Source: Burkholderiaceae bacterium (GTDB taxonomy: Bacteria; Pseudomonadota; Gammaproteobacteria; Burkholderiales; Burkholderiaceae_C). From it: a stretch of DNA of 64,000 bases. The stretch is taken from positions 1-64,000 of the forward strand of contig JAEUOU010000005.1 in assembly GCA_016790575.1 (NCBI GenBank). Direction: 5' to 3'. The notes below the pieces were generated by a model. That model was not told where the DNA came from, searched no databases, and saw only the letters and a program-made list of their open reading frames with translations. Below, piece by piece: positions 6,508-60,470 of the stretch (positions within the stretch are counted from its first letter, which is position 1; every line of letters begins with the position of its first letter). Made by a program: the position numbers and the translations under genes.

Positions 6508-6534
6508 ACCGGGCTGGAAACCGACGAAATTGAT

Positions 6535-6918
6535 ATGAACTTAATAGCTAAAGAAGACCATTCCACGATGGGTAATGGCCAAAAAAGCCTTGAAATCGAC
6601 AACACGGTCGATCCGCGCACCCTGGACCTGCGCGGCATCGACTGCGTGGTGCTGCAATTTCCCAAATTCACGGACGGCCGCGCCTACAGCCAGGCGTTCC
6701 TGCTGCGCCGCCGGCTGGGCTTTGCCGGCGACATCCGCGCCACCGGCGACGTGCTGATCGACCAGCTGGTGCAGATGGCCCGCAGCGGCTTTTCCAGCGC
6801 AGTGTTGCGCGAGGGCGTGGACGCGGCGGCCGCGCAGCGCCAGTTCGAGCGCTTTGCCGCTTTCTACCAGGGCGACGCCGTCACCCCCGCCCCGCTGTTC
6901 GCCGTGGAGGCCGCATGA
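6535..6918 (+). CDS. DUF934 family protein, sulfur assimilation accessory
   Basis: A 127-residue protein. The conserved DUF934 part begins around residue 28 (RTLDLRGIDCVVLQFPKFTDGRAYSQAFLLRRRLGF), and the family is habitually found between cysI and cysH in proteobacteria. Its molecular role is not established; a helper of sulfite or APS reduction is usually assumed. The first 20 or so residues (LIAKEDHSTMGNGQK) are encoded by a copy of the dispersed repeat described here and look non-family. An internal in-frame ATG at 6568, inside the repeat, is an alternative start. The 3' end overlaps cysH by ATGA (6915-6918), suggesting translational coupling. Confidence 0.85.
   Translation: MNLIAKEDHSTMGNGQKSLEIDNTVDPRTLDLRGIDCVVLQFPKFTDGRAYSQAFLLRRRLGFAGDIRATGDVLIDQLVQMARSGFSSAVLREGVDAAAAQRQFERFAAFYQGDAVTPAPLFAVEAA
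6540..6590 (+). repeat. Dispersed 50-bp repeat, copy A (inside DUF934 gene start)
   Basis: Forward copy: TTAATAGC, then GACCATTCCACGATGGGTAA and TGGCCAAAAAA. It is nearly identical to copy B across the core GACCATTCCACG-N-TGGGTAATGGCCAAAAA. It is read as LIAKEDHSTMGNGQK in the DUF934 frame. Confidence 0.8.
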
Positions 6919-8712: not shown

Positions 8713-10266
8713 ATGAGCACTACCACACTGATAGCAAACAATGACCATTCCACGCTGGGTAATGGCCAAAAAGACACCAAAATCGCCCTGAAGTTCATCA
8801 CCTGCGGCTCGGTGGACGACGGCAAGAGCACCTTGATCGGCCGCCTGCTGGTGGACAGCAAGGCCGTGCTGCAGGACCACCTGGCGGGCGTGCAGCGCCA
8901 GGGAGAGACCGACCTCGCGCTGCTGACCGACGGCCTCTCCGCCGAGCGCGAACAGGGCATCACCATCGACGTGGCCTACCGTTACTTCGCCACCGAAGAC
9001 CGCAAGTTCATCATCGGTGACGCGCCCGGCCACGAGCAGTACACCCGGAACATGGTCACGGCCGCATCCAGCGCCGACGCCGCCGTGGTGCTGGTGGACG
9101 CCACCAAACTCGACTGGCGCAACCCGGCGCTGGAGCTGCTGGTGCAGACCCGCCGCCACTCGCTGCTGTGCAACCTGCTGCGCGTGCCGTCCATCGTGTT
9201 CACGGTCAACAAGCTCGACGCGGTGGCCGACCCGGCACTGGCCTTTCGCCACATCGAAGCGGCACTGCGTTCGTTTGCCGCGAGTGCCGGCATCGCCGTG
9301 ACCGCCGTGGTGCCGATCTCGGCGCTCAAGGGCTGGAACGTGGTCGATGTCGGCCATGAACACGCCGGCTGGTGCGGTTACACCGGCCCGACGCTGCTGC
9401 AGATCCTGGAAGCGCTGCCCGGCACGCCGTCGGAAAGCGCGGCGCCGCTGGCGTTCCCGGTGCAGTGGGTGGAGAAGTTCTCAGGTTCTGCCGACACCTC
9501 CAAGGGCCGCCGCGTGTTCTGGGGCCGTGTCGCCGCCGGGCGCGTGTCGGTCGGCGATGCCGTCCAGATCTTTCCCAGCGGCCAGCTCGCCACCGTGGCC
9601 GAGGTGCTGGACCACGCCCGGCGCCCGAAAAGCATCCCCGCCGGCCACAGCGCCGGCATCATCCTGGACCGCGAGGTGGATGTCTCCCGCGGCGACTGGG
9701 TATTGCAGGCCCCCACGCTTGTCGCTGCGCGTACTGCGCTGGACGTGCCTTCGCCTGAGGCGACGGCTCTTCGGCCCGTCCATACCTGCGCAGGCAGGCC
9801 TGGAGCCGCGGGCCTCAGCCCCGAGGGGGCCCCGCCTGGCTTGGGGCGGCCCGGCGCGGCGGCGGAGGCCGTGCTGCAAGCCGCAGCCGACGACGACGAC
9901 TTCGACACCCCCGCCCCCGTGTCGCCCTACCCTGGGCAGCGCGAGCTGGCCACCACCATCGCGTGGATGGACGACGAGCCGCTGGTGGCCGGCCGCGTGT
10001 ACTGGGCGCTGCACGGCCATCGCTGGGTCAAGGCCAAGGTGCGCCGCATCGTGCACCGGCTGGACATCCACACCCTGGCCGAAAGCGACGCCAGCCAGCT
10101 CGAACCCAACGCCATCGGCCACGTGGAGCTGCTGCTGCAGGAGGCGCTGCCCGCCGTGTCGTTCGAGCGCTCGCGGGTGCTGGGCGCGCTGATCCTGGTG
10201 GACACCGCCTCGCACAAGACCGCCGGCGCGGTGCTGGTGAACCGACCTGCGGCCAGCCACAAATGA
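8713..10266 (+). CDS. cysN: Sulfate adenylyltransferase subunit 1, GTPase (CysN), with repeat-derived leader and large linker insertion
   Basis: A 517-residue elongation-factor-like GTPase. G motifs are clear: GSVDDGKS at residues 32-39, DAPGH and NKLD. Domain II is recognisable up to DVSRGDWVLQAP (about residue 333) and domain III resumes at TIAWMDDEPLVAGRVYWALHGH (about residue 412). The roughly 75 residues between them are Gly/Pro/Ala-rich and do not resemble CysN, which normally joins these domains directly. The first 24 residues are encoded by repeat copy B (LIANNDHSTLGNGQK). No cysC kinase domain is fused at the C-terminus. It follows cysD by 53 bp. Function should be intact because all G motifs and the family C-terminus are present. 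Confidence 0.94.
   Translation: MSTTTLIANNDHSTLGNGQKDTKIALKFITCGSVDDGKSTLIGRLLVDSKAVLQDHLAGVQRQGETDLALLTDGLSAEREQGITIDVAYRYFATEDRKFIIGDAPGHEQYTRNMVTAASSADAAVVLVDATKLDWRNPALELLVQTRRHSLLCNLLRVPSIVFTVNKLDAVADPALAFRHIEAALRSFAASAGIAVTAVVPISALKGWNVVDVGHEHAGWCGYTGPTLLQILEALPGTPSESAAPLAFPVQWVEKFSGSADTSKGRRVFWGRVAAGRVSVGDAVQIFPSGQLATVAEVLDHARRPKSIPAGHSAGIILDREVDVSRGDWVLQAPTLVAARTALDVPSPEATALRPVHTCAGRPGAAGLSPEGAPPGLGRPGAAAEAVLQAAADDDDFDTPAPVSPYPGQRELATTIAWMDDEPLVAGRVYWALHGHRWVKAKVRRIVHRLDIHTLAESDASQLEPNAIGHVELLLQEALPAVSFERSRVLGALILVDTASHKTAGAVLVNRPAASHK
8728..8780 (+). repeat. Dispersed 50-bp repeat, copy B (inside cysN start)
   Basis: Forward copy with CTGATAGCAAACAATGACC, then ATTCCACGCTGGGTAATGGC and CAAAAAGAC. 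It lies 2.19 kb from copy A in the same direction and operon, and is read in the same frame as copy A. Confidence 0.82.
9745..9935 (+). other. GC-rich insertion in the cysN interdomain linker
   Basis: In-frame segment of about 190 bp with runs such as GAGGGGGCCCCGCC and TTGGGGCGGCCCGG, and near-inverted GGCCTGGAG / CGGAGGCC ends. It encodes Arg/Gly/Pro/Ala-rich sequence followed by an acidic DDDDFDTP patch. Composition and position suggest a mobile or expanding GC-rich repeat that entered cysN without breaking the frame. Boundaries are approximate. Confidence 0.6.
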
Positions 10267-11831: not shown

Positions 11832-11867
11832 CTCTTTACAATACGCACCGGCGCGGCCCCGGTCGCG

Positions 11868-11960
11868 CCATTCGCTAGGGGTGTTGCGGTTTTGCCGCCG
11901 CGACTGAGAAAGTCCCTTTGAACCTGATTGAGGTAATCCTCGCGCAGGGAAGCAAGCTTC
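11868..11960 (+). promoter_or_regulatory. TPP riboswitch (THI element)
   Basis: The conserved blocks occur in order: CTAGGGGTG, a P3 arm (TTGCGGTTTTGCCGCCGCGA), CTGAGA, CCCTTTGAACCTGAT, GAGGTAATCCTC (P4/P5) and CGCAGGGAAGC. This is the thiamin pyrophosphate aptamer. It ends about 75 nt before the ATG of the TonB-dependent receptor at 12034, so receptor expression should fall when TPP is plentiful. A GC-rich hairpin (GGCGCCC 11966-11972 with GGGCGCC 11983-11989) follows without a T-run, which suggests control of translation initiation rather than classic termination (inference). Confidence 0.9.
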
Positions 11961-12033
11961 AGGACGGCGCCCGCTCTCTCCAGGGCGCCTCAAGTCCCGG
12001 CAAGCCGACCTGCCATTTCGTCGAAAGCACGTC

Positions 12034-14214
12034 ATGGCACATCAACCGCCATTTTTCAAGAAAAAAGCCGCTCTATCCAGCGTGGAATGGTCATTATTTG
12101 CTCTATTTTTTGCAGCAGGCAACGTGTCCGCCCAAACGGCCGGCGCCGATGCCAGCCTCAAGCCCGTCACGGTCAGCGAACGCAGCGCGGCACCGCTGGC
12201 CGACGTCACCGGCTTCGGTGACCAGCCGCTGGAGCGCAGCCCCTTTGCCGCCACCGTCATCGATGCCGCCACCATCGTCGACACCGGCGCGCGCCGCCTG
12301 TCCGACCTGTACCGACTGGACGCCTCCGTCTCCGACGCCTACAACGCCGTCGGCTACTGGGACTACGCCAGCATGCGCGGCTTTGTCATCGACCAGACCA
12401 GCAACTGGCGCCGCGACGGCCTGCCCATCAGCGCCGAGACCAGCCTGCCGCTGGAAAACCGAGAGCGGGTCGAGTTTCTCAAAGGCACCAGCGGCATCCA
12501 GGCCGGTACCAGTGCCCCGGGTGGCCTGGTCAACCTGGTCATCAAACGGCCCACGGAGAAACCACTGCGCACGCTGCGCCTGGAAACCAACCACCGGGGC
12601 GGCCTGCTGGCCCATGCCGACCTCGGCGGCCGCTTCGGCGAGAACCGGCGTTTCGGCTACCGGCTGAACCTGGCGGCCGAGGACGTCCGCAGCCACGCGT
12701 CTGGGGCAGACGGCTCACGCCACCTGCTGGCCCTGGCCATGGACTGGCGCGTCTCGCCCGACACGGTGATCGAGGGTGAATGGGAGACCTCGCGCCGCCG
12801 CCAGCCCAGCGTGCCGGGCCTGAGCCTGACCGGCAGCACGCTGCCGGCGCCCAACCCGTTCATCAACATCAACACCCAGCCCTGGTCCCAGGCCAACGTG
12901 TTCGACAACCTGAGCGGCAGCCTCGGCATTCAGCAGGCCATCAACAGCCAGTGGCGGTGGCAGGCCCAGATCGGTACCCAGCGGCTGAAGAGCCAGGACC
13001 GCCTGGCCTATCCCTACGGCTGCTTTGACGCCGGCACGGGTGCCTACTACGCCGACCGCTACTGCCCGAACGGCGACTTCGACCTCTATGATTTCCGCAG
13101 CACCAACGAGCGCCGCCGCACCCATGCCGCCCAGATCCGGGCCATCGGCCAGCTCGATACCGGCGCGGTGCGACACCACCTGTCATTCGGAGTGCTGGCC
13201 AGCCGCTTCATCGACCGCGGCGAGCCGCAGGCCGACAACAACTCGGCTGTCGGCACCGGCAACCTGTTCACCCTGCCCGTGCTGCCGCCCGATCCGACCT
13301 TCGGCGATCCCTACACCAACCGCACCGAGCGCAGCACCGAGTTCTTCGCCTATGACGCGATCCAGTGGAGCCCGGCCTTCCAGACCTGGCTGGGGCTGCG
13401 CCATACCCGGCTGCATCGCGAAAGCGTTCGCACCGACGGCAGCCGCGCCACGGCGTACACGCGCGCCATCTCCACCCCCTGGCTCGCCGCGACCTGGCAG
13501 CTGACCCCGGCCACGATGTTCTACGCCAGCGTGGGCAAAGGCGTGGAGTCCGAAGTAGCCCCGGGCCGCAGCCGCTACACCAACGCCGGCCAGCCCCTGC
13601 CGGCCTTGCGCAGCCGCCAGACCGAACTGGGCGTCAAGAACCAGACCGACCGCGCCACGTGGAGCGCGACGGTGTTCGACATCACACGCCCCCTGTGGGG
13701 CGACGCCGGCAGCTGCGACGTGGCGGGCAGTTGCACCCGCCAGGTTGACGGCGAGGTGCGCCACCGCGGCCTGGAACTGGCGGGCGGGTGGCAGGCCGGT
13801 CCCTGGCACCTGAATGGCAGCACCACATGGCTGGACGCTGAACGCCGCCATGCCGTCATCAACCCGGGCCTGAATGGCAAACGCCCGACCAACGTCCCAG
13901 GCTGGACCCTGCGTGCGCAAGTTCGCTACCGCCTGGCTGCGGTCCCGGGCCTGAGCGTGGAAGGCGCGCTCTCGCATGAAGGCCGCCGCGCCGTGTTGCC
14001 AGACGAATCGGTCATGTTGCCGTCGTGGACACGCCTGGACACCGCATTGCGGTACGAAACCCGGCTGCTGGGACAACGGGCCACCTGGAGCCTGTCGGTT
14101 GACAACGTGGCCAACCGCCGCGGCTTCGTGGAGTCGCCGTACCAGTACAGCCATATCTATCTATTCCCGGCCGCACCACGGACCGTGCGACTGGGGCTGC
14201 ACGCTGGGTTCTGA
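12034..14214 (+). CDS. TonB-dependent outer-membrane receptor, TPP-riboswitch controlled
   Basis: A 726-residue receptor. The plug domain covers roughly residues 55-165 (PFAATVIDAATIVDTGARRL, MRGFVIDQTSNWRRDG, RVEFLKGTSGIQAG, PGGLVNLVIKRP), the barrel follows, and the chain ends in the aromatic C-terminus LGLHAGF needed for barrel assembly. By sequence alone it looks like a FhuE/siderophore-type receptor. The TPP riboswitch in its leader argues instead for thiamin or a precursor as substrate (inference from regulation). The N-terminal signal peptide (KKKAALSSVEWSLFALFFAA) is encoded by reverse repeat copy C. It needs TonB/ExbBD, not encoded here. tRNA-Asn follows. Confidence 0.9.
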   Translation: MAHQPPFFKKKAALSSVEWSLFALFFAAGNVSAQTAGADASLKPVTVSERSAAPLADVTGFGDQPLERSPFAATVIDAATIVDTGARRLSDLYRLDASVSDAYNAVGYWDYASMRGFVIDQTSNWRRDGLPISAETSLPLENRERVEFLKGTSGIQAGTSAPGGLVNLVIKRPTEKPLRTLRLETNHRGGLLAHADLGGRFGENRRFGYRLNLAAEDVRSHASGADGSRHLLALAMDWRVSPDTVIEGEWETSRRRQPSVPGLSLTGSTLPAPNPFININTQPWSQANVFDNLSGSLGIQQAINSQWRWQAQIGTQRLKSQDRLAYPYGCFDAGTGAYYADRYCPNGDFDLYDFRSTNERRRTHAAQIRAIGQLDTGAVRHHLSFGVLASRFIDRGEPQADNNSAVGTGNLFTLPVLPPDPTFGDPYTNRTERSTEFFAYDAIQWSPAFQTWLGLRHTRLHRESVRTDGSRATAYTRAISTPWLAATWQLTPATMFYASVGKGVESEVAPGRSRYTNAGQPLPALRSRQTELGVKNQTDRATWSATVFDITRPLWGDAGSCDVAGSCTRQVDGEVRHRGLELAGGWQAGPWHLNGSTTWLDAERRHAVINPGLNGKRPTNVPGWTLRAQVRYRLAAVPGLSVEGALSHEGRRAVLPDESVMLPSWTRLDTALRYETRLLGQRATWSLSVDNVANRRGFVESPYQYSHIYLFPAAPRTVRLGLHAGF
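12058..12117 (-). repeat. Dispersed 50-bp repeat, copy C (encodes receptor signal peptide)
   Basis: Reverse-orientation copy. On the minus strand it reads GAGCAAATAATGACC, then ATTCCACGCTGGATAGAGCG and CTTTTTTC. Through the receptor gene it is translated as KAALSSVEWSLFALFF, the lysine-plus-hydrophobic part of the signal peptide. Confidence 0.72.
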
Positions 14215-14262
14215 AACAGGACAACCGACAGACCAGGGCGCCGCGAAGTTTTTGCAGCACCC

Positions 14263-14292
14263 TTGAAAAAGTGCCGAAAATCGCTCTATAAT
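14263..14292 (+). promoter_or_regulatory. Sigma70-type promoter of tRNA-Asn
   Basis: TTGAAA (14263-14268), an 18-bp spacer, then TATAAT (14287-14292). The start point would fall about 5 nt before the mature tRNA 5' end. Confidence 0.75.
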
Positions 14293-14303
14293 CCAAGGCT
14301 TGT

Positions 14304-14379
14304 TCCCCGATAGCTCAGTCGGTAGAGCGCCGGACTGTTAATCCGTAGGTCCCTGGTTCGAGCCCAGGTCGGGGAGCCA
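14304..14379 (+). tRNA. tRNA-Asn(GTT)
   Basis: A 76-nt tRNA with acceptor TCCCCGA / TCGGGGA, D-arm TAGCTCAGTCGGTAGAGC, anticodon loop CTGTTAA (GTT), T-arm CTGGTTCGAGCCCAG and encoded CCA at the end. Confidence 0.97.
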
Positions 14380-14386
14380 AAAAAAC

Positions 14387-14427
14387 AAAAAGGCCCTGCA
14401 AATTTTTGCAGGGCCTTTTTCTTTTTG
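14387..14427. terminator. Rho-independent terminator after tRNA-Asn
   Basis: The stem AAAAAGGCCCTGCAAA pairs with TTTGCAGGGCCTTTTT and is followed by CTTTTT. It is symmetrical, so it can also act for the minus-strand helicase gene ending at 14551. Confidence 0.9.
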
Positions 14428-14550
14428 CTCGCGATGGGGCGGCAGTCGCGAAAGGGGTCAGAAAGCCAAAGCAGCGGCCCTTGCAGGCCGCCTGCCACCG
14501 GCGCCGATGGCAACCAGCGCCCTGCCGGTCCCGCGATGGTTCAAAACCGA

Positions 14551-16311
14551 TCAGCCGCGGGTGATCTTGAGTACCTTGGCGCCGTGGTTGGTCCGTGCCT
14601 GGCCTTCGCTGCGTGGCGTGAAGGGCTTGCCGGTGTGCCCAGCCTTGGCCGGCGCAGGACGACCATGTGCCGGCTTGCGAGTACCCCAATCGCCGCTGCG
14701 CGGGGCGAAGCCATCACTGCGCCCCCCGGCGGCATGCTCACGGCGGCGGTCTGGCTGGCCTTCAAAACCCGAATCGGAGCGAAAGCCGTCGGCGCCTACC
14801 TGACGCGGGCCGCGGGCAAAGCGCTCGCTATCCGGACGCGGGCGCTTGTCGCGTGGTGCGCTGGCACGCTGTCCCCGGCCTTCGAATCCCGACTTGCCAA
14901 AGCGGCCGGCCGGTGCAGAGGCCGGAAAGCGCTGCGTCGGCTCCAAGCCCGGAATGACTTCGGCCTTGAAGTGCTGGTGGGTGAAGGTTTCGATGTCAAA
15001 GACCCGACGCCGGTCGCGAAACTCGGCAAACGAGACTGCCAGGCCGTCGCGACCCGCCCGTCCGGTGCGCCCAATGCGATGGGTGTAATCCTCCGCCTTC
15101 ATCGGCAGGCCGAAGTTGAACACATGGGTGATCGTCGGTACGTCAATCCCGCGCGCCGCAACATCGGTGGCCACCAGGATCTGTACCTGGCCATTACGAA
15201 GCGCCATCAGGCGGCGATTGCGCAGGCCCTGGCTGAGGGCGCCATGCAGGGCTACGGCAGAGAAGCCTTCTTGCTGCAGGTCGCTGGCCAGGCCATCGCA
15301 CTCGATCTGGGTGCTGGCAAACACAATCGCCTGGTCAATCGAGGCATCGCGCAGCCAGTGGTCCAACATCTTGCGTTTGTGCGCTGCGTTGTCGGCCCAG
15401 AACAGCACCTGCTTGATGTTGGCGTGTTTCTCCTGCGGCGAGTCGATCTGCACTTTCTTCACCGCCGAACCGTTGTCGTGCATGACGCGCATGGCCAGTT
15501 GCTGGATGCGCGGCGCGAATGTTGCGCTGAACATCATGGTCTGCTGGCGCTGGCTGGTGAGCTGGTTGATTTCGGCCAGATCGTCCGAAAAGCCCAGGTC
15601 GAGCATGCGGTCGGCCTCGTCCACGACGAGGAATCGAACCTGGTCCAGCTTGATCTGCATCGAGCGCTGCAGGTCCAGCAATCGGCCCGGTGTGGCCACG
15701 ACCAGATTGGCGTTCTGCAGCTTGGCAATCTGCAACTGGTACGGCATGCCGCCGACGATGTTGGCGATGCGCAGGCCACGGCAGTGTTTGACCAGTTCGA
15801 TGGCGTCGTGCGCCACCTGCTGCGCCAGCTCGCGCGTGGGGCACAGCACCAGCGCGCCCGGTGTGGCGGCTTTGAAATGGCGCGGGTTGGTCGGGTCCTT
15901 GCGGCGCGGCCTCTTGGGCGCGGCTTCGCCACGCGCCAAGGCGTCCGCCGTCAGCCGCTCGAATTCGGCGCGCTCGCTGGCTTCCTCTTGGGCCAGCTGG
16001 CAGATCAAGGTGTGCAGCATGGGCAGCAAAAAGGCGGCGGTTTTCCCGCTGCCCGTCTGGCTGGACACCATGAGGTCGTTGTACCCATGGTGCTCGCCGT
16101 CGTCGGACGGCAGGGCCAACGGAATCGTGCGCTCCTGCACAGCGGTCGGTGCGGTATAGCCCAGATCGGCAACGGCCCGAACCAGTTCGGGCGCAAGGCC
16201 CAGGCGCACAAAACCGTTCGGCGCTGCTGGCGCCATGGGCAAGGTGCCAGCGGGAAGGGAAGAAATATCGGCAGGCGCAAAGTCGCCCTGCACGGCAAGC
16301 GTGTCGGTCAT
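14551..16311 (-). CDS. DEAD-box ATP-dependent RNA helicase (RhlE-like)
   Basis: A 586-residue protein. Motifs seen: Q-motif region GYTAPTAVQE, motif I SQTGSGKT (residues 84-91), Ia PTRELAQQV, motif II VVDEADRML, motif III SATF, motif V ATDVAARGIDV and motif VI HRIGRTGRAG. The last 115 residues are Arg/Gly/Pro-rich and disordered (GFEGQPDRRREHAAGGR), as in RhlE-type helicases that act on rRNA or mRNA duplexes. An insertion of about 10 residues (SDDGEHHGYND) separates the Q motif from motif I, and a basic insertion (PKRPRRKDPTNPRH) follows motif Ia's approach. The 220-bp upstream region shows no clear element. Confidence 0.93.
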   Translation of the reverse strand: MTDTLAVQGDFAPADISSLPAGTLPMAPAAPNGFVRLGLAPELVRAVADLGYTAPTAVQERTIPLALPSDDGEHHGYNDLMVSSQTGSGKTAAFLLPMLHTLICQLAQEEASERAEFERLTADALARGEAAPKRPRRKDPTNPRHFKAATPGALVLCPTRELAQQVAHDAIELVKHCRGLRIANIVGGMPYQLQIAKLQNANLVVATPGRLLDLQRSMQIKLDQVRFLVVDEADRMLDLGFSDDLAEINQLTSQRQQTMMFSATFAPRIQQLAMRVMHDNGSAVKKVQIDSPQEKHANIKQVLFWADNAAHKRKMLDHWLRDASIDQAIVFASTQIECDGLASDLQQEGFSAVALHGALSQGLRNRRLMALRNGQVQILVATDVAARGIDVPTITHVFNFGLPMKAEDYTHRIGRTGRAGRDGLAVSFAEFRDRRRVFDIETFTHQHFKAEVIPGLEPTQRFPASAPAGRFGKSGFEGRGQRASAPRDKRPRPDSERFARGPRQVGADGFRSDSGFEGQPDRRREHAAGGRSDGFAPRSGDWGTRKPAHGRPAPAKAGHTGKPFTPRSEGQARTNHGAKVLKITRG

Positions 16312-16532
16312 GGTGTGAAACTCCAGGCACGGGCCCGCATAGTCTGCGGGGACTCCGTCAATGGTTAAAAAACATCAACCATCAAACGGAGCTCGGTGCT
16401 GCTGGCAAGGCCGACGGGCCTGCCCAGTCGAGTGACTCTTATCGGTGAGTCAACAGTGTGAGGGGCGATGTACGAAGCACAGGTTACCCGGTGCAGCCTT
16501 GCATTATCGCACAAAGTGATTTTTCCTGCGGG

Positions 16533-17141
16533 TTAACCCGGACCGTCTTCTGTCGCCGGGCCCGAAACCCGCAGAAACTGCGCCCGGTAATGGACCAGTT
16601 CCTCGATCGATTCCTGCACATCGGCCAACGCGGTGTGCTTCTGATGTTTCTTGAACGCGCTGAACACGTCAGGGCGCCAGCGTCGGGCAAGCTCCTTAAG
16701 AGTGCTGACGTCAACATTTCGGTAATGAAGAAAGGCCTCCAGTTTGGGCATATAGCGCACCAGGAAGCGCCGATCCTGCCCTATGCTGTTGCCGCACAGC
16801 GGTGAGGTGCCCTTGGGCACCAGAGGCTTCAGAAACTCCAGAATCCGGGCCTCCGCTTCGGCCTCGGTCACGGTAGAGGCTCGAACCTTGTCGATCAGTC
16901 CGCTGCGGCCGTGGGTGCCCTTGTTCCATGCGTCCATCGCGTTGAGAATGGACTCGGGCTGGTGTATCACCAGCACCGGGCCTTCCACCCGCGGCTCCAG
17001 GTCAGGACCTGTCACAACGACAGCGATTTCGATGAGACGTTCTTTTTCGGGGTCCAGACCGGTCATTTCACAGTCAATCCAGACCAGATTAAGGTCGGAT
17101 TTGGCCAAGACCGGGGCAACGGAAGTACTTGTTTCGTTCAT
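16533..17141 (-). CDS. orn: Oligoribonuclease
   Basis: A 202-residue DEDDh 3'-5' exonuclease with the first acidic motif [10 protein letters not shown], the middle motif [12 protein letters not shown] and the last motif [14 protein letters not shown]. It degrades 2-5 nt RNA fragments and pGpG to mononucleotides. Length exceeds the usual 180-190 residues by a short C-terminal tail ([11 protein letters not shown]). It is divergent from the M48 protease gene with a 59-bp gap, so promoters must overlap. Confidence 0.96.
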
Positions 17142-17200
17142 GCCGGGAATTGTCGTTTATCCAGGGCTGGTCTCCCGCTTTGAGCCTACACTCGCCACCC

Positions 17201-18478
17201 ATGTCCGAATCCCTGTCTCCTTCCCTGCTGACCACTCTGGTTTTTGTGTTCTTTTTGCTGGCGGGTCTGTTTGCACAACTGTGGCTCAACACCCGCCAGG
17301 TTCGGCATGTCGCGCACCACCGCGCCGCGGTTCCGGCACCCTTTGCCGGGCGCGTGACGCTGCAAGCCCATCAGAAGGCCGCCGACTACACCCTGGCGAA
17401 ACTTCGATTCGGTCTGGTGGAAACCCTCTTGGGTACTGCGGTATTGGTTGCCTGGACACTGCTGGGTGGTCTTGACCTGCTCAATCAATTGCTACAGATG
17501 CTGCTGAGCGGCTGGTCGGGCCTGTCCCGCCAGATCGCCCTGGTGGCCGCTTTCGCCCTGATTTCCGCTCTGATCGGGTTGCCGGCCAGCCTGTATCAGA
17601 CCTTTGTTCTGGAACAGCGGTACGGCTTCAACCGGACTCCGTTCGCCCTGTGGGTCAGCGACCAGCTCAAGGGAGCGTTGCTCGGCGCCGGTTTGGGCCT
17701 GCCCCTTCTCGCCCTGGTACTCTGGTTGATGAACGCAGCCGGCAGCGCCTGGTGGCTATGGACCTGGCTGGTCTGGATGACGTTCAACCTGGTGTTGCTG
17801 GTGGTCTACCCGACCTTCATCGCGCCACTGTTCAACCGCTTCCAGCCCCTCGACGATGAGAGTCTGCGGGCCCGCGTGACCGCGCTGATGGCCCGCTGCG
17901 GCTTCAAGGCCAGTGGCTTCTACGTCATGGATGGAAGCCGCCGTAGCGCCCATGCCAACGCCTATTTCACCGGTTTCGGCGCGGCCCGCCGGGTAGTCTT
18001 CTTTGACACCTTGTTGCAACAGCTGTCACCCGCCGAGGTTGATGCCGTGCTGGCGCACGAGTTGGGCCACTTTCGCAGGCGCCATATCCCGCAGCGCATC
18101 GCCGCCGCGTTTGTCAGCAGTTTGCTGGGTCTGGCCTTGCTGGGGTGGCTTTCGACCCAAGTGTGGTTTTACACGGGGCTGGGTGTCACGCCCAATCTGA
18201 ACGGAACGCCCAATGACGCGCTCGCTTTGCTTCTGTTCCTCATGGCAGCGCCGGTTTTCACGTTCTTTGTCAGTCCGATTTTTTCTGCGCTTTCGCGCCG
18301 CCATGAATTCGAGGCCGACGCTTTCGCCGTCACCCACACCAGCGGAGCCGACTTGGGCAGCGCTTTGCTCAAGCTCTACCAGGACAACGCCTCAACCTTG
18401 ACACCGGATCCGTGGTACGTGCGCTTTTACTATTCGCATCCGCCCGCCGCGGAGCGACTGGCCCGCCTACACGCCTGA
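17201..18478 (+). CDS. M48 family membrane metalloprotease (Ste24/CAAX protease-like)
   Basis: A 425-residue zinc protease with several hydrophobic segments and the HExxH motif in AVLAHELGHFRRRHI (about residue 285). The third zinc ligand region is HEFEADAFAVTH near residue 370. The N-terminal half (EQRYGFNRTPFALWVSDQLKG) is the Ste24-type peptidase_M48_N domain rather than the shorter HtpX. Bacterial members are thought to act on membrane or periplasmic proteins; no substrate can be named. It is followed 10 bp later by phhB. Confidence 0.92.
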   Translation: MSESLSPSLLTTLVFVFFLLAGLFAQLWLNTRQVRHVAHHRAAVPAPFAGRVTLQAHQKAADYTLAKLRFGLVETLLGTAVLVAWTLLGGLDLLNQLLQMLLSGWSGLSRQIALVAAFALISALIGLPASLYQTFVLEQRYGFNRTPFALWVSDQLKGALLGAGLGLPLLALVLWLMNAAGSAWWLWTWLVWMTFNLVLLVVYPTFIAPLFNRFQPLDDESLRARVTALMARCGFKASGFYVMDGSRRSAHANAYFTGFGAARRVVFFDTLLQQLSPAEVDAVLAHELGHFRRRHIPQRIAAAFVSSLLGLALLGWLSTQVWFYTGLGVTPNLNGTPNDALALLLFLMAAPVFTFFVSPIFSALSRRHEFEADAFAVTHTSGADLGSALLKLYQDNASTLTPDPWYVRFYYSHPPAAERLARLHA

Positions 18479-18488
18479 AGGGACGGTT

Positions 18489-18824
18489 GTGACGCGAAAA
18501 GAGCCAATACCCAGTGTGAAAAGGTCACTTGACGCTATAGAAATAGAATCGCTTTTGCCGACTGCGCCTTTGTGGCAGCTCGACCGTTCAATGGAATTTC
18601 CGGCATTGCAGCGGGCGGTGGTTTTTGCCACCGAAGCCCAGGCGGAAGCGTTCCTGCGCGCCCTGGAGACGCTGGCAAACCGTCTCGATCATCATCCGCA
18701 AGCACGTATCGACGGAGCCATCTGCAGCGTGCGCTGGTGGACCCATCAGCCGCCGGGACTCTCGCAGCTGGACTTCGAATGCGCCCGCCAGACCGACCGG
18801 CTTGTGAACGCTAAACCGTCATGA
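18489..18824 (+). CDS. Pterin-4a-carbinolamine dehydratase (PhhB-like) with repeat-derived N-terminus
   Basis: A 111-residue protein starting at GTG (18489). The dehydratase core is recognised from LDHHPQARIDGAICSVRWWTH (the DHHP motif) and the WQLDRSMEF...F segment before it. The family recycles the 4a-hydroxy-tetrahydropterin made by aromatic amino acid hydroxylases. The first 20 or so residues (EPIPSVKRSLDAIEIESL) come from reverse repeat copy D and look non-family. The core itself is short and somewhat divergent. The stop overlaps the rsgA start (ATGA, 18821-18824), coupling it to a functionally unrelated gene. Confidence 0.82.
   Translation: MTRKEPIPSVKRSLDAIEIESLLPTAPLWQLDRSMEFPALQRAVVFATEAQAEAFLRALETLANRLDHHPQARIDGAICSVRWWTHQPPGLSQLDFECARQTDRLVNAKPS
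18496..18551 (-). repeat. Dispersed 50-bp repeat, copy D (inside phhB start)
   Basis: On the minus strand it reads TATAGCGTCAAGTGACC, then TTTTCACACTGGGTATTGGC and TCTTTT. Translated in the phhB frame it gives EPIPSVKRSLDAIEIES, in the same register as copy C in the TonB receptor. Confidence 0.8.
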
Positions 18825-30697: not shown

Positions 30698-30734
30698 CCC
30701 GCCCAAAACGTCGGTGGACCGGCATTCCGATACT

Positions 30735-30797
30735 ATTATTTTAATAGCGTACAACGACCTTTTGACGCTGGGTATCGGCAGAAAACGACCTAAAAGA
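30735..30797 (+). repeat. Dispersed 50-bp repeat, copy E (intergenic purM/murJ)
   Basis: Forward copy with ATTTTAATAGCGTACAACGACC, then TTTTGACGCTGGGTATCGGC and AGAAAACGACC. It lies between two convergent genes and could form a hairpin between AGCGT and ACGCT. Confidence 0.8.
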
Positions 30798-39232: not shown

Positions 39233-40102
39233 ATGACCTGCCCCTATACCGCCCCGGCGTCCCGTTCGGACACCGAAACCATCGTGCGCGACGAAAAGGC
39301 CCGCCTCGATTTCAGCCGCGACATGAGTTACGGCGACTACCTGCAGCTGGACTCCATCCTGAACGCGCAGAAGCCGCTGTCGCCCGCGCACGACGAGATG
39401 CTGTTCATCGTCCAGCATCAGACCAGCGAGTTGTGGATGAAACTGATGCTGCATGAACTGCAGGCAGCGATCGGCAACATCGCGGCAGACCGACTCAACC
39501 CCGCATTCAAACAGATGGCCCGCGTCTCCAAGATCATGGAACAGCTGGTCCACGCTTGGGACGTGCTGGCCACCATGACACCGCCGGAATACAGCGCCAT
39601 CCGGCCCTATCTGGGCCATTCCAGCGGATTCCAGAGCTTCCAGTACCGCTGCATCGAATTCGCCATGGGCAACAAGAACGCCGCCATGCTGCTGCCCCAC
39701 GCCCACAACCCCGAACGGGCAGCAATGGTCCAGGCCGCCTATGAAGCACCGTCCCTGTATGACGAATGCCTGCGCCTGCTGGCCCGGCGGGGCATCGCGG
39801 TGCCGGCCTCGCATCTGGAACGAGACTGGACCCTGCCGTACCAGTCCGATGACGGCGTAGAGCAAGCCTGGCTGACGGTGTACCGAGATCCGGACCGCCA
39901 TTGGGCGCTCTACCAGCTCGGAGAAGAATTGACGGACCTGGAGGATGCTTTCCGCCTGTGGCGCTTCCGACACCTGACGACGGTGGAGCGGGTGATCGGG
40001 GTCAAACGCGGAACGGGCGGCACTGGTGGCGTCAGCTACTTGCGCAAAATGCTGGATGTGGTGCTTTTCCCCGAGATCTGGCGTCTGCGAACCAATTTAT
40101 AG
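39233..40102 (+). CDS. kynA: Tryptophan 2,3-dioxygenase
   Basis: A 289-residue heme dioxygenase with [38 protein letters not shown] (heme/substrate region), [18 protein letters not shown] and [19 protein letters not shown]. It opens the indole ring of tryptophan to N-formylkynurenine, the first step for KynB and KynU. It starts 9 bp after kynU. Repeat copy F begins at its stop codon. Confidence 0.97.
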
Positions 40103-40156
40103 GCAAAACAGGTCAGTACCCAGCGTAAATTAGTCGCTTTTGCTATCATTAATATA
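40103..40156 (-). repeat. Dispersed 50-bp repeat, copy F (between kynA and the FAD monooxygenase)
   Basis: On the minus strand it reads ATGATAGCAAAAGCGACTAA, then TTTACGCTGGGTACTGACC and TGTTTTGCC. It is the most diverged copy accepted. It fills the gap between the convergent genes. Confidence 0.65.
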
Positions 40157-40163
40157 GCGATGA

Positions 40164-59820: not shown

Positions 59821-60336
59821 ATGGCAACTGCAAAGAAAGCTCCGGCCAAGGCGGCCGCACCGGCCAAGAAGGCTGCCGCACCGGCGAAGGCTGCCGCACC
59901 GGCGAAGAAGGCTGCACCGGCCAAGAAGGCTGCGGCGCCCGCGAAGAAGGCGGCTGCACCGGCCAAGAAAGCTGCTGCTCCCGCCAAGAAGGCTGCAGCT
60001 CCCGCCAAGAAGGCTGCAGCTCCTGCCAAGAAAGCTGCAGCCCCCGCGAAGAAAGCAGCCGCTCCTGCCAAGAAGGCCGCAGCCAAACGCTCCCCCAACG
60101 CTGCCTTCATGAAGGCCATGACCCCCAGCGACGCGCTGGCCGCGATCATCGGCAAAGGACCGTATCCGCGCACCGAAGTGACCAAGCGGGTGTGGGAATA
60201 CATCAAGAAGAACAAACTTCAGGATGAAGTCAACAAGCGCATGATCAACGCCGACGCCAAGCTGAAGGAAATTTTCAAGAAGGCGCAGGCGTCGATGTTC
60301 GAAATGACAAAGATGATCAACGCCCACCTCAAGTGA
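59821..60336 (+). CDS. Histone H1-like AAKK-repeat protein fused to a SWIB/MDM2 domain
   Basis: A 171-residue protein. Residues 1-90 are almost only Ala, Lys and Pro in tandem units of AAAPAKK, like eukaryotic H1 tails and bacterial H1-like proteins. Residues 92-171 form a SWIB domain (NAAFMKAMTPSDALAAIIG, RTEVTKRVWEYIKKNKLQDE, MFEMTKMINAHLK). SWIB domains are otherwise known from chlamydiae and eukaryotic chromatin remodellers. A DNA-compacting role is likely from the basic tail. Shine-Dalgarno AAGAGGA precedes the ATG. The repeat tract probably varies in length between strains. Confidence 0.9.
   Translation: MATAKKAPAKAAAPAKKAAAPAKAAAPAKKAAPAKKAAAPAKKAAAPAKKAAAPAKKAAAPAKKAAAPAKKAAAPAKKAAAPAKKAAAKRSPNAAFMKAMTPSDALAAIIGKGPYPRTEVTKRVWEYIKKNKLQDEVNKRMINADAKLKEIFKKAQASMFEMTKMINAHLK
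59880..60075 (+). repeat. Tandem codon repeat tract in the H1-like gene
   Basis: About nine imperfect units of 18-21 bp, such as GCTCCTGCCAAGAAGGCTGC, encoding AAAPAKK. Codon choice drifts between units (GCG/GCC/GCT), so it is an old tract rather than a recent perfect amplification. It is coding, not a CRISPR or satellite. Confidence 0.9.
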
Positions 60337-60398: not shown

Positions 60399-60409
60399 CG
60401 ATTTTTCAG

Positions 60410-60470
60410 GCCCAAAAGGCCAATACCCAGCGAAAAAACGTCACTTCAAGCTATCATTTTTGAAGTGACG
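60410..60470 (-). repeat. Dispersed 50-bp repeat, copy G (overlaps end of IlvB-like gene)
   Basis: On the minus strand it reads ATGATAGCTTGAAGTGACG, then TTTTTTCGCTGGGTATTGGC and CTTTTGGG. A perfect 10-bp inverted repeat, CGTCACTTCA (60439-60448) and TGAAGTGACG (60461-60470), covers its outer part and includes the last codons and stop of the IlvB-like gene. Confidence 0.72.

Follow-up and report, generated by a model that had tools for sequence, protein, structure and literature searches.

Why should two unrelated genes begin with the same translated repeat? The question arises in a 64,000-nucleotide stretch of a Burkholderiaceae genome (assembly GCA_016790575.1, contig JAEUOU010000005.1; hereafter the window, in whose coordinates all motif positions are given), where reverse-strand copies of a dispersed repeat lie at the start of the genes for a TonB-dependent receptor (copy C) and for PhhB, a pterin-4a-carbinolamine dehydratase (copy D). 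An earlier note on this DNA had read the pair as a clear case of a repeat turned into protein, its frame kept open in both genes and copy C having drifted to a hydrophobic secretion signal. We found this interpretation correct in part but far too narrow: the preference for the shared frame is genuine, yet it belongs to a fixed motif with dialects that is common to many genera, and not to a newly protein-converted repeat. We favor, with modest confidence, a fixed DNA-level recognition motif with lineage-specific dialects that would be translated secondarily at gene starts, and we are highly confident of the descriptive part of this reading, namely how many copies there are, the architecture and dialects of the motif, the conservation of its positions and orientation, and its preferred antisense frame. 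The genome that contains the window (3.45 Mb) is called G000, and other G numbers denote the genomes of relatives.

Copies C (12053-12119) and D (18487-18553), both 67 bp long and on the minus strand, are genuine members of one repeat. Copy C translates to FKKKAALSSVEWSLFALFFAAG on the plus strand within the open reading frame at 12034-14214, and copy D to VTRKEPIPSVKRSLDAIEIESL within that at 18489-18824, in the same phase relative to the motif as copy C, so that the earlier coordinates, translations and shared frame were right. The antisense readings correspond to residues of about 7-29 of the receptor, the n- and h-region of its putative signal peptide, and of about 1-22 of PhhB; the repeat thus does encode the core of this putative signal peptide and the N-terminus of PhhB, as had been claimed. 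Compared with a core pattern of 26 fixed bases, copy D has one mismatch and copy C six. A 67-bp weight matrix built from 82 copies, to which copy D belongs and copy C does not, scores them at 72.1 and 42.7, respectively. Both pass a scan with five dialect matrices from whose training the window copies were excluded (58.8 for copy D and 38.3 for copy C), the maximum five-dialect score in 400 trials with reversed real windows being 16.0.

The consensus of the 82 copies reaches well past the core first noticed and gives a motif of about 64-67 bp, laid out as an inverted repeat (GCTAY-N7-RTAGC), a lineage-specific middle of about 29 nt, and an end that consists of GGC, a T-rich part and a CTTGAAA-like sequence; only 17 of the roughly 64 bp are palindromic. 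Alignment of oriented copies gave a separate consensus for each of five genomes (G000, G031, G063, G009 and G035), with a spacing common to all and a different middle; in G000 the inverted repeat is followed by GACCNTTNNACGCTGGGTATTGGC and then by T-rich and GAAA ends. All five dialects are AT-rich (mean GC 34-48%), the strongest AT period is 10.25-11 bp in four of them (a descriptive value), and the information content of matrix-selected copies amounts to 45-65 bits across the 52 positions from 0 to 51. At positions -12 to -6 of the G000 copies, the left arm of the palindrome is often swapped for a TCCTG-like sequence, which is perhaps a dialect change at the palindrome itself. By eye, a copy at about 40090-40160 of the window has a perfect GCTAT-N7-ATAGC palindrome with a spacer to the core of 6 nt, not 7; copies with an altered spacer such as this one escape ungapped patterns.

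The motif is abundant. We detected 242 matches to the core in G000 at up to three mismatches, and none to the reversed pattern. In a search of 110 genomes for the 17-bp inverted repeat, the highest counts were found in G035 (708), G009 (575), G019 (501), G039 (465), G031 (431), G063 (424) and G020 (420), with controls of 22-66 in these seven motif-rich genomes, and many genera of the same family had five matches or fewer. The G000 form itself is present in seven of 399 family genomes, its own included (G000, 242; G213, 50; G050, 24; G170, 22; G199, 9; G025, 2; and G042, 1). An exact scan of named genomes returned at least 77 loci, all under Burkholderiales names save one Candidatus Azambacteria record. 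The carriers named among the matches listed include Hydrogenophaga sp. S04.Bin021, Burkholderiales S06.Bin154, Burkholderiaceae PR3 and SSC6, a Rhodoferax bin and Tibeticola sediminis, and these names point to the Comamonadaceae. The density of the motif is 2.50-2.65 per 10 kb in G009, G031, G035 and G063 despite their differing dialects, and zero in reversed sequence, although the stretches were picked for palindromes and the density therefore leans high. Even spacing was rejected, the coefficient of variation between palindromes (0.81, on one contig) being barely more regular than random. We found no description of the motif by title or abstract in a literature search of partial coverage, in which some queries concerned analogues only.

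These copies could be mobile. On that explanation, which is the one implied by the earlier note, they would belong to a selfish repeat similar to miniature inverted-repeat transposable elements (MITEs), repetitive extragenic palindromic (REP) elements or Rickettsia palindromic elements (RPEs), inserted at many places and kept where the frame stayed open. The copies are indeed short, dispersed, mostly intergenic and sometimes in-frame within genes (within genes, the antisense copies share one frame in 17 of 18 cases and the sense copies another in 16 of 20, see below), and RPEs provide a known precedent (PMC10969869). Recent near-identical copies were, however, missing: the maximum pairwise identity over 64 nt is 83% among the 82 G000 copies and 75-91% in the four other genomes, no pair exceeding 91% in the two highest. 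Copies selected by the palindrome in these four genomes do not decay uniformly outside it, since their conservation is position-specific (standard deviation 0.183-0.210 versus 0.070-0.098 for uniform decay, the former being somewhat inflated as orientation was set by best fit).

The sites are also shared between relatives. Among 151 genes that flank G000 copies, 25 have an orthologue-like match in 79 loci of relatives. Of the 24 evaluable cases (13 elements), 19 have the motif at the corresponding end of the gene, without exception in the orientation seen in G000. As the loci had been fetched because they contain copies, the far gene ends served as a control that addresses this bias; they hold the motif in two of 20 cases and never in the same orientation (Fisher p 4e-6 for same versus far ends, assuming independent ends). 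At most of these ends, insertion sites thus do not differ between relatives in the way that mobile repeats would leave. Low pairwise identity, position-specific conservation and positions shared across relatives disfavor active mobility, and the comparison of sequences suggests a motif that is fixed and without recent mobility. A mobile repeat appears improbable to us, all the more as orthologous sites carry the dialect of their own genome.

This last observation comes from orthologues of four window genes whose N-termini are spelled by the motif. Besides the receptor and PhhB, these are CysN, for which the plus-strand copy at 8716-8782 (weight matrix 71.4, five-dialect score 58.8) encodes in sense the N-terminus LIANNDHSTLGNGQKDTKI, and the DUF934 protein, for which the plus-strand copy at 6529-6595 (69.6 and 49.9) encodes in sense the N-terminus MNLIAKEDHSTMGNGQKSLEI. 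In all four proteins, the motif-coded stretch lies outside the recognized domain or only at its edge. Orthologues were scored with the five dialect matrices, the G000 matrix being built without window copies, and a site was called at a score of at least 20. The motif was detected at the N-terminus in 10 of 11 receptor, 16 of 23 CysN, 17 of 24 DUF934 and nine of 20 PhhB loci scored. The CysN sample is 23 because the G213 row was excluded, its match lying in another gene and only a C-terminal CysN fragment having been fetched. The receptors of another eight genomes poor in palindromes had scores of -49 or less; these and the remaining PhhB loci were scored by the G000 matrix only, and the distant receptor matches L118-L127 were left out. 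At 12 of the 14 orthologous sites whose genome has a matrix of its own, that matrix fits the middle best. The presence of the motif at the same place in the receptors and PhhB of relatives contradicts the view that a repeat was recently turned into protein twice independently.

Does the agreement of copies C and D in frame then mean anything? Among the 82 G000 copies (at most three mismatches), the three antisense frames are open in 78 (the frame of C and D), 78 and 28 copies and the three sense frames in 74, 1 and 34. Two agreeing copies are weak evidence, because the frame is open in most copies anyway, and we rejected the two-copy argument on its own, as openness in 78 of 82 copies brings it close to a coin flip. 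In-gene copies are more informative; for these we required strongly coding sequence over 180 nt to either side and no stop across the whole span, which gave 38 copies from five genomes, none counted twice. Seventeen of the 18 antisense copies use frame 1, the frame of C and D, and 16 of the 20 sense copies use sense frame 0. The antisense frame preference is real beyond openness (combined p about 6e-6 against the openness-weighted expectation); its main source is G063, in which 30% of copies have the frame open and six of six use it, and p is 0.04-0.17 in the other genomes. The sense preference, over the same five genomes, is not significant against this expectation (p 0.18). A looser count with the gene caller gave 34 of 38 antisense and 32 of 39 sense copies in the favored frames. 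The phases show that both favored frames set third codon positions on the same nucleotides, and the peptides they encode are mostly alanine-rich or neutral; the preference probably arose from selection against the other readings. The claim of a frame kept open therefore stands as a preference in genes, but could not have been deduced from C and D, members of a mostly intergenic repeat that is open in this frame nearly throughout. A coding origin of the motif was rejected, given that codon-phase conservation in copies called intergenic had no consistent pattern.

The supposed drift of copy C to a hydrophobic signal fared less well. By eye, the receptor N-terminus has candidate parts of a signal peptide, with FFKKK as the positive n-region, WSLFALFFAAG as the hydrophobic core and VSA-QT as the A-x-A-type cleavage site, and the best 12-residue hydropathy is 1.74 for copy C and 0.72 for copy D; the receptors of six relatives, whose elements belong to the dialect of copy C or to another, reach 1.61-2.05. 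Fifty-seven of the 82 copies have no stop over 66 nt, and the hydropathy of these readings has a median of 0.84 and a maximum of 2.21. A special drift is unnecessary, since the G213 copy, for instance, which is close to the consensus, already yields a workable hydrophobic core. In other dialects it is the inverted repeat that codes the hydrophobic core, as GCTATATTTTTAATAGC does in G035.

Which is older, the motif or the protein residues? If ordinary protein conservation or chance explained the similarity, with no special DNA element behind it, the residues should persist where the motif is missing, and to some extent they do. The PhhB proteins of G042, G003, G002 and G018 lack the motif (five-dialect scores -16.4, -5.6, -20.5 and -17.2, respectively) and still have R-R-A-L-x-x-x-E-[IVL]-V, in a stretch that overlaps the Pterin_4a domain beginning at residue 14; the SV..SL.A residues of copy D also partly overlap this domain. 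Orthologues with the same residues and no repeat, which the earlier note had named as evidence against itself, thus exist in part.

For DUF934, the motif was undetected at all 28 loci from palindrome-poor genomes of the family (maximum score -10.4). Twenty of these have a longer, unrelated N-terminal region, 19 of which begin with M[KQ][FY]I; six (G044, G016, G061, G051, G022 and G029) have a short N-terminus that begins with [ML]K[LI][LI]; and two (G001 and G026) match neither form. Since M[KQ][FY]I, which resembles the MK[LI]I spelled by the motif, occurs in 19 of the 28 genomes ahead of an otherwise unrelated longer N-terminus, the first residues of DUF934 are no proof of a repeat origin, and we dropped the idea that MK[LI][LI]A in motif-less DUF934 proteins is a fossil of the repeat. 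The DNA motif itself recurs hundreds of times, the majority of its sampled copies having been called intergenic, and its copies score above the maximum of the 400 reversed windows, so that conservation or chance is refuted as regards the DNA motif and extremely improbable as an overall explanation.

A tree of concatenated CysI, DUF934 and CysH (51 genomes, one locus cluster; the motif-bearing G014 was excluded with 182 usable residues) places several palindrome-poor genera among motif-bearing ones, and a number of its deep nodes are weak (0.26-0.66). G051 groups with G042, G016 and G022 with G023, G061 with G063, and G044 with G000 (support 0.52-0.98), and a Fitch count for the DUF934 site gives eight changes. 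These placements fit the loss of an old element in nested lineages. As the first residues are shared with the long-form genera, the motif may have been laid over existing residues such as MKxI as well as having created new ones.

The genomic location of the copies bears on two further explanations. Most sampled copies were called intergenic, and of 173 copies in four genomes, convergent gaps contain 34 and divergent gaps five, while those between tandem genes are 48 antisense and 21 sense. Such a distribution, with convergent gaps and antisense placement preferred, is what an RNA element at gene 3' ends (a terminator, an attenuator or a small RNA) might produce, and the G009 consensus resembles a GGGC..GCCC hairpin followed by T's. 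Yet folding z-scores are only -0.3 to -1.6 on either strand, the pyrimidine/purine pair of the palindrome shows no significant covariation (p 0.09), the G000 hairpin ahead of the T run is weak by inspection, and no window copy matched an Rfam family at gathering score, the matches in the window being tRNAs and a thiamine pyrophosphate (TPP) riboswitch only. The AT period near one helical turn in four of the five dialects also points to action as DNA. RNA structure was rejected for its weak support from folding and from Rfam on the window copies, and we regard an RNA element as improbable, slightly more so than a mobile repeat.

A protein that binds the motif and organizes the chromosome, acts on the nucleoid or regulates genes globally is the more serious competitor, although we consider it rather unlikely. 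Position and dialect would then co-evolve with this protein, with no role in uptake. The inverted repeat and the AT tracts near helical spacing agree with such a protein, as do the fixed positions and orientation and the scarcity of copies in divergent gaps, which hold promoters (five versus 34 in convergent ones). On the other hand, 45-65 bits per site is far above the normal need of a single protein, a promoter-type regulator leaves the excess of copies in convergent gaps unexplained, and several genera of the family have few or no palindromes.

In the reading we prefer, that of a recognition motif translated secondarily, a trans-acting factor that changes from one lineage to the next would recognize the motif in its double-stranded DNA form, and the sites of each genome, those within genes included, would shift to its current dialect. 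By analogy with DNA uptake sequences, this shift might be driven by biased uptake and recombination; a chromosome-organizing or regulatory protein could be the recognizer instead. A site that overlaps a gene start would be translated, only alanine-rich or tolerable readings (sense frame 0 and antisense frame 1) would be kept, and in the receptor the reading of the motif would serve as a secretion signal. DNA uptake as the specific function is a tentative proposal based on that analogy. Equally tentative is the bolder version of a Comamonadaceae uptake-type motif of about 64 bp, with about a thousand copies in motif-rich genomes, whose drive rewrites N-termini in place. Within the limits set by what the protein tolerates, signal peptides, CysN, PhhB and DUF934 would then begin with the spelling of the current dialect, in no other reading frames than the two with harmless peptides.

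Several observations weigh against this preferred reading. About 1000 sites would require far less than the 45-65 bits observed, and known uptake sequences are shorter than the motif. The strongest AT period in G035 is 7.75, and two copies in G063, and likewise in G035, are up to 91% identical. Both misses of the dialect comparison fall in G063, whose DUF934 site is best fitted by the G009 matrix and whose CysN lacks the element. In G000, 22 of the 52 positions are conserved in at least 95% of copies, a profile that is partly circular as these 22 are among the 26 fixed by the search pattern; hence the evidence on conservation comes from the palindrome-selected sets alone. The stretches and loci were selected for the copies that they contain, and the statistics of frame and location depend on a home-made gene caller or codon score. 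This caller starts the receptor at 12124 and PhhB at 18591, downstream of copies C and D, so that the count of copies at N-termini is too low, some of them appearing as intergenic.

If the preferred reading is true, one DNA-level constraint would act on hundreds of sites in each genome across numerous genera belonging to a common environmental family, and dialect turnover would override part of the coding sequence of metabolic genes. Some N-termini, a secretion signal included, would be by-products of a genome-wide DNA motif, and the co-evolution of motif and recognizer would become testable in a new bacterial family. Annotators of this motif-bearing family would then have reason to be wary of start codons and of N-terminal 'homology'.

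Two further window copies are intergenic at 30729-30795 (plus strand, core 30744-30779, one mismatch) and located at 60403-60469 (minus strand, core 60419-60454, two mismatches). The receptor gene that holds copy C (12034-14214, plus strand) encodes a Plug domain (residues 66-164) and a beta-barrel (238-692) and matches TIGR01783. Because a TPP riboswitch (11867-11967, plus strand; RF00059, 61.3 bits) directly precedes it, the receptor is probably of the thiamine type and would take up thiamine. The PhhB gene with copy D (18489-18824, plus strand) has a GTG start, and PF01329 covers residues 14-105. At 9703-9876, CysN also contains a GC-rich insert (residues of about 331-388) that is a member of a different dispersed repeat. 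Protein segments resembling it are found at numerous places in G213 and G042, and loci L207, L266, L194, L031, L267 and L065 contain pieces of DNA with 79-91% identity to it. A tandem coding repeat at 59844-60092, alanine/lysine-rich and spaced mostly by 21 nt, is histone H1-like by eye.

Comparison with known systems places the motif among several families of short repeats. REP elements are associated with the REP-associated transposase RAYT. They are palindromes tagged by GTAG/CGTC according to the parts of PMC3733652 that describe them, and the motif shares with them its short length, its mostly extragenic location and a palindromic part; going by this description it differs in that only 17 of about 64 bp are palindromic and in its positions conserved across genera. 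The BRE repeats, in the relevant parts of PMC3110155, are scattered over the genomes of Bordetella and Comamonadaceae and, like our motif, occasionally fall within coding sequences; they are GC-rich (69% in Bordetella), 75-91 bp long, sometimes tandem and present in at most 29 copies. Identity with BRE was rejected on composition (34-48% versus 69% GC) and copy number (hundreds versus at most 29), not by sequence comparison. RPEs, as presented in part of PMC10969869, are inserted elements of about 150 bp, and like in-frame MITEs they resemble the motif as a short repeat read in-frame within unrelated genes. The motif differs from them by positions conserved across genera, by the lack of very recent copies among those compared, and by orthologous sites with differing dialects.

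Uptake sequences offer the closest analogy, yet we do not file the motif as a member, because it is much longer (45-65 bits) and its uptake role would be assigned by analogy only. The DNA uptake sequence (DUS) and the uptake signal sequence (USS) have a recognition core of about 10-12 bp, and inverted pairs are common for DUS. The motif, with about 64-67 bp and 45-65 bits over 52 positions, has no such short core. It is over-represented as they are (242 versus 0 in G000 and 420-708 versus 22-66 in seven genomes) and has lineage dialects (five consensuses, with 12 of 14 sites best fitted by their own and the misses in G063). In the sections of PMC3630211 on this subject, DUS of the Neisseriaceae occur in hundreds of copies per genome, with lineage dialects, both between and within genes and at permissive locations, and in those of PMC2346458 USS of the Pasteurellaceae are biased to gene termini, with one orientation commoner in reading frames. 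For one DUS pair in S. muelleri, the former source describes no obvious single-frame preference, whereas the motif has one. To the extent of these accounts, the motif is like DUS and USS in its hundreds of copies, its dialects, its permissive sites between and within genes, its bias to the ends of genes, and the one orientation favored in frame.

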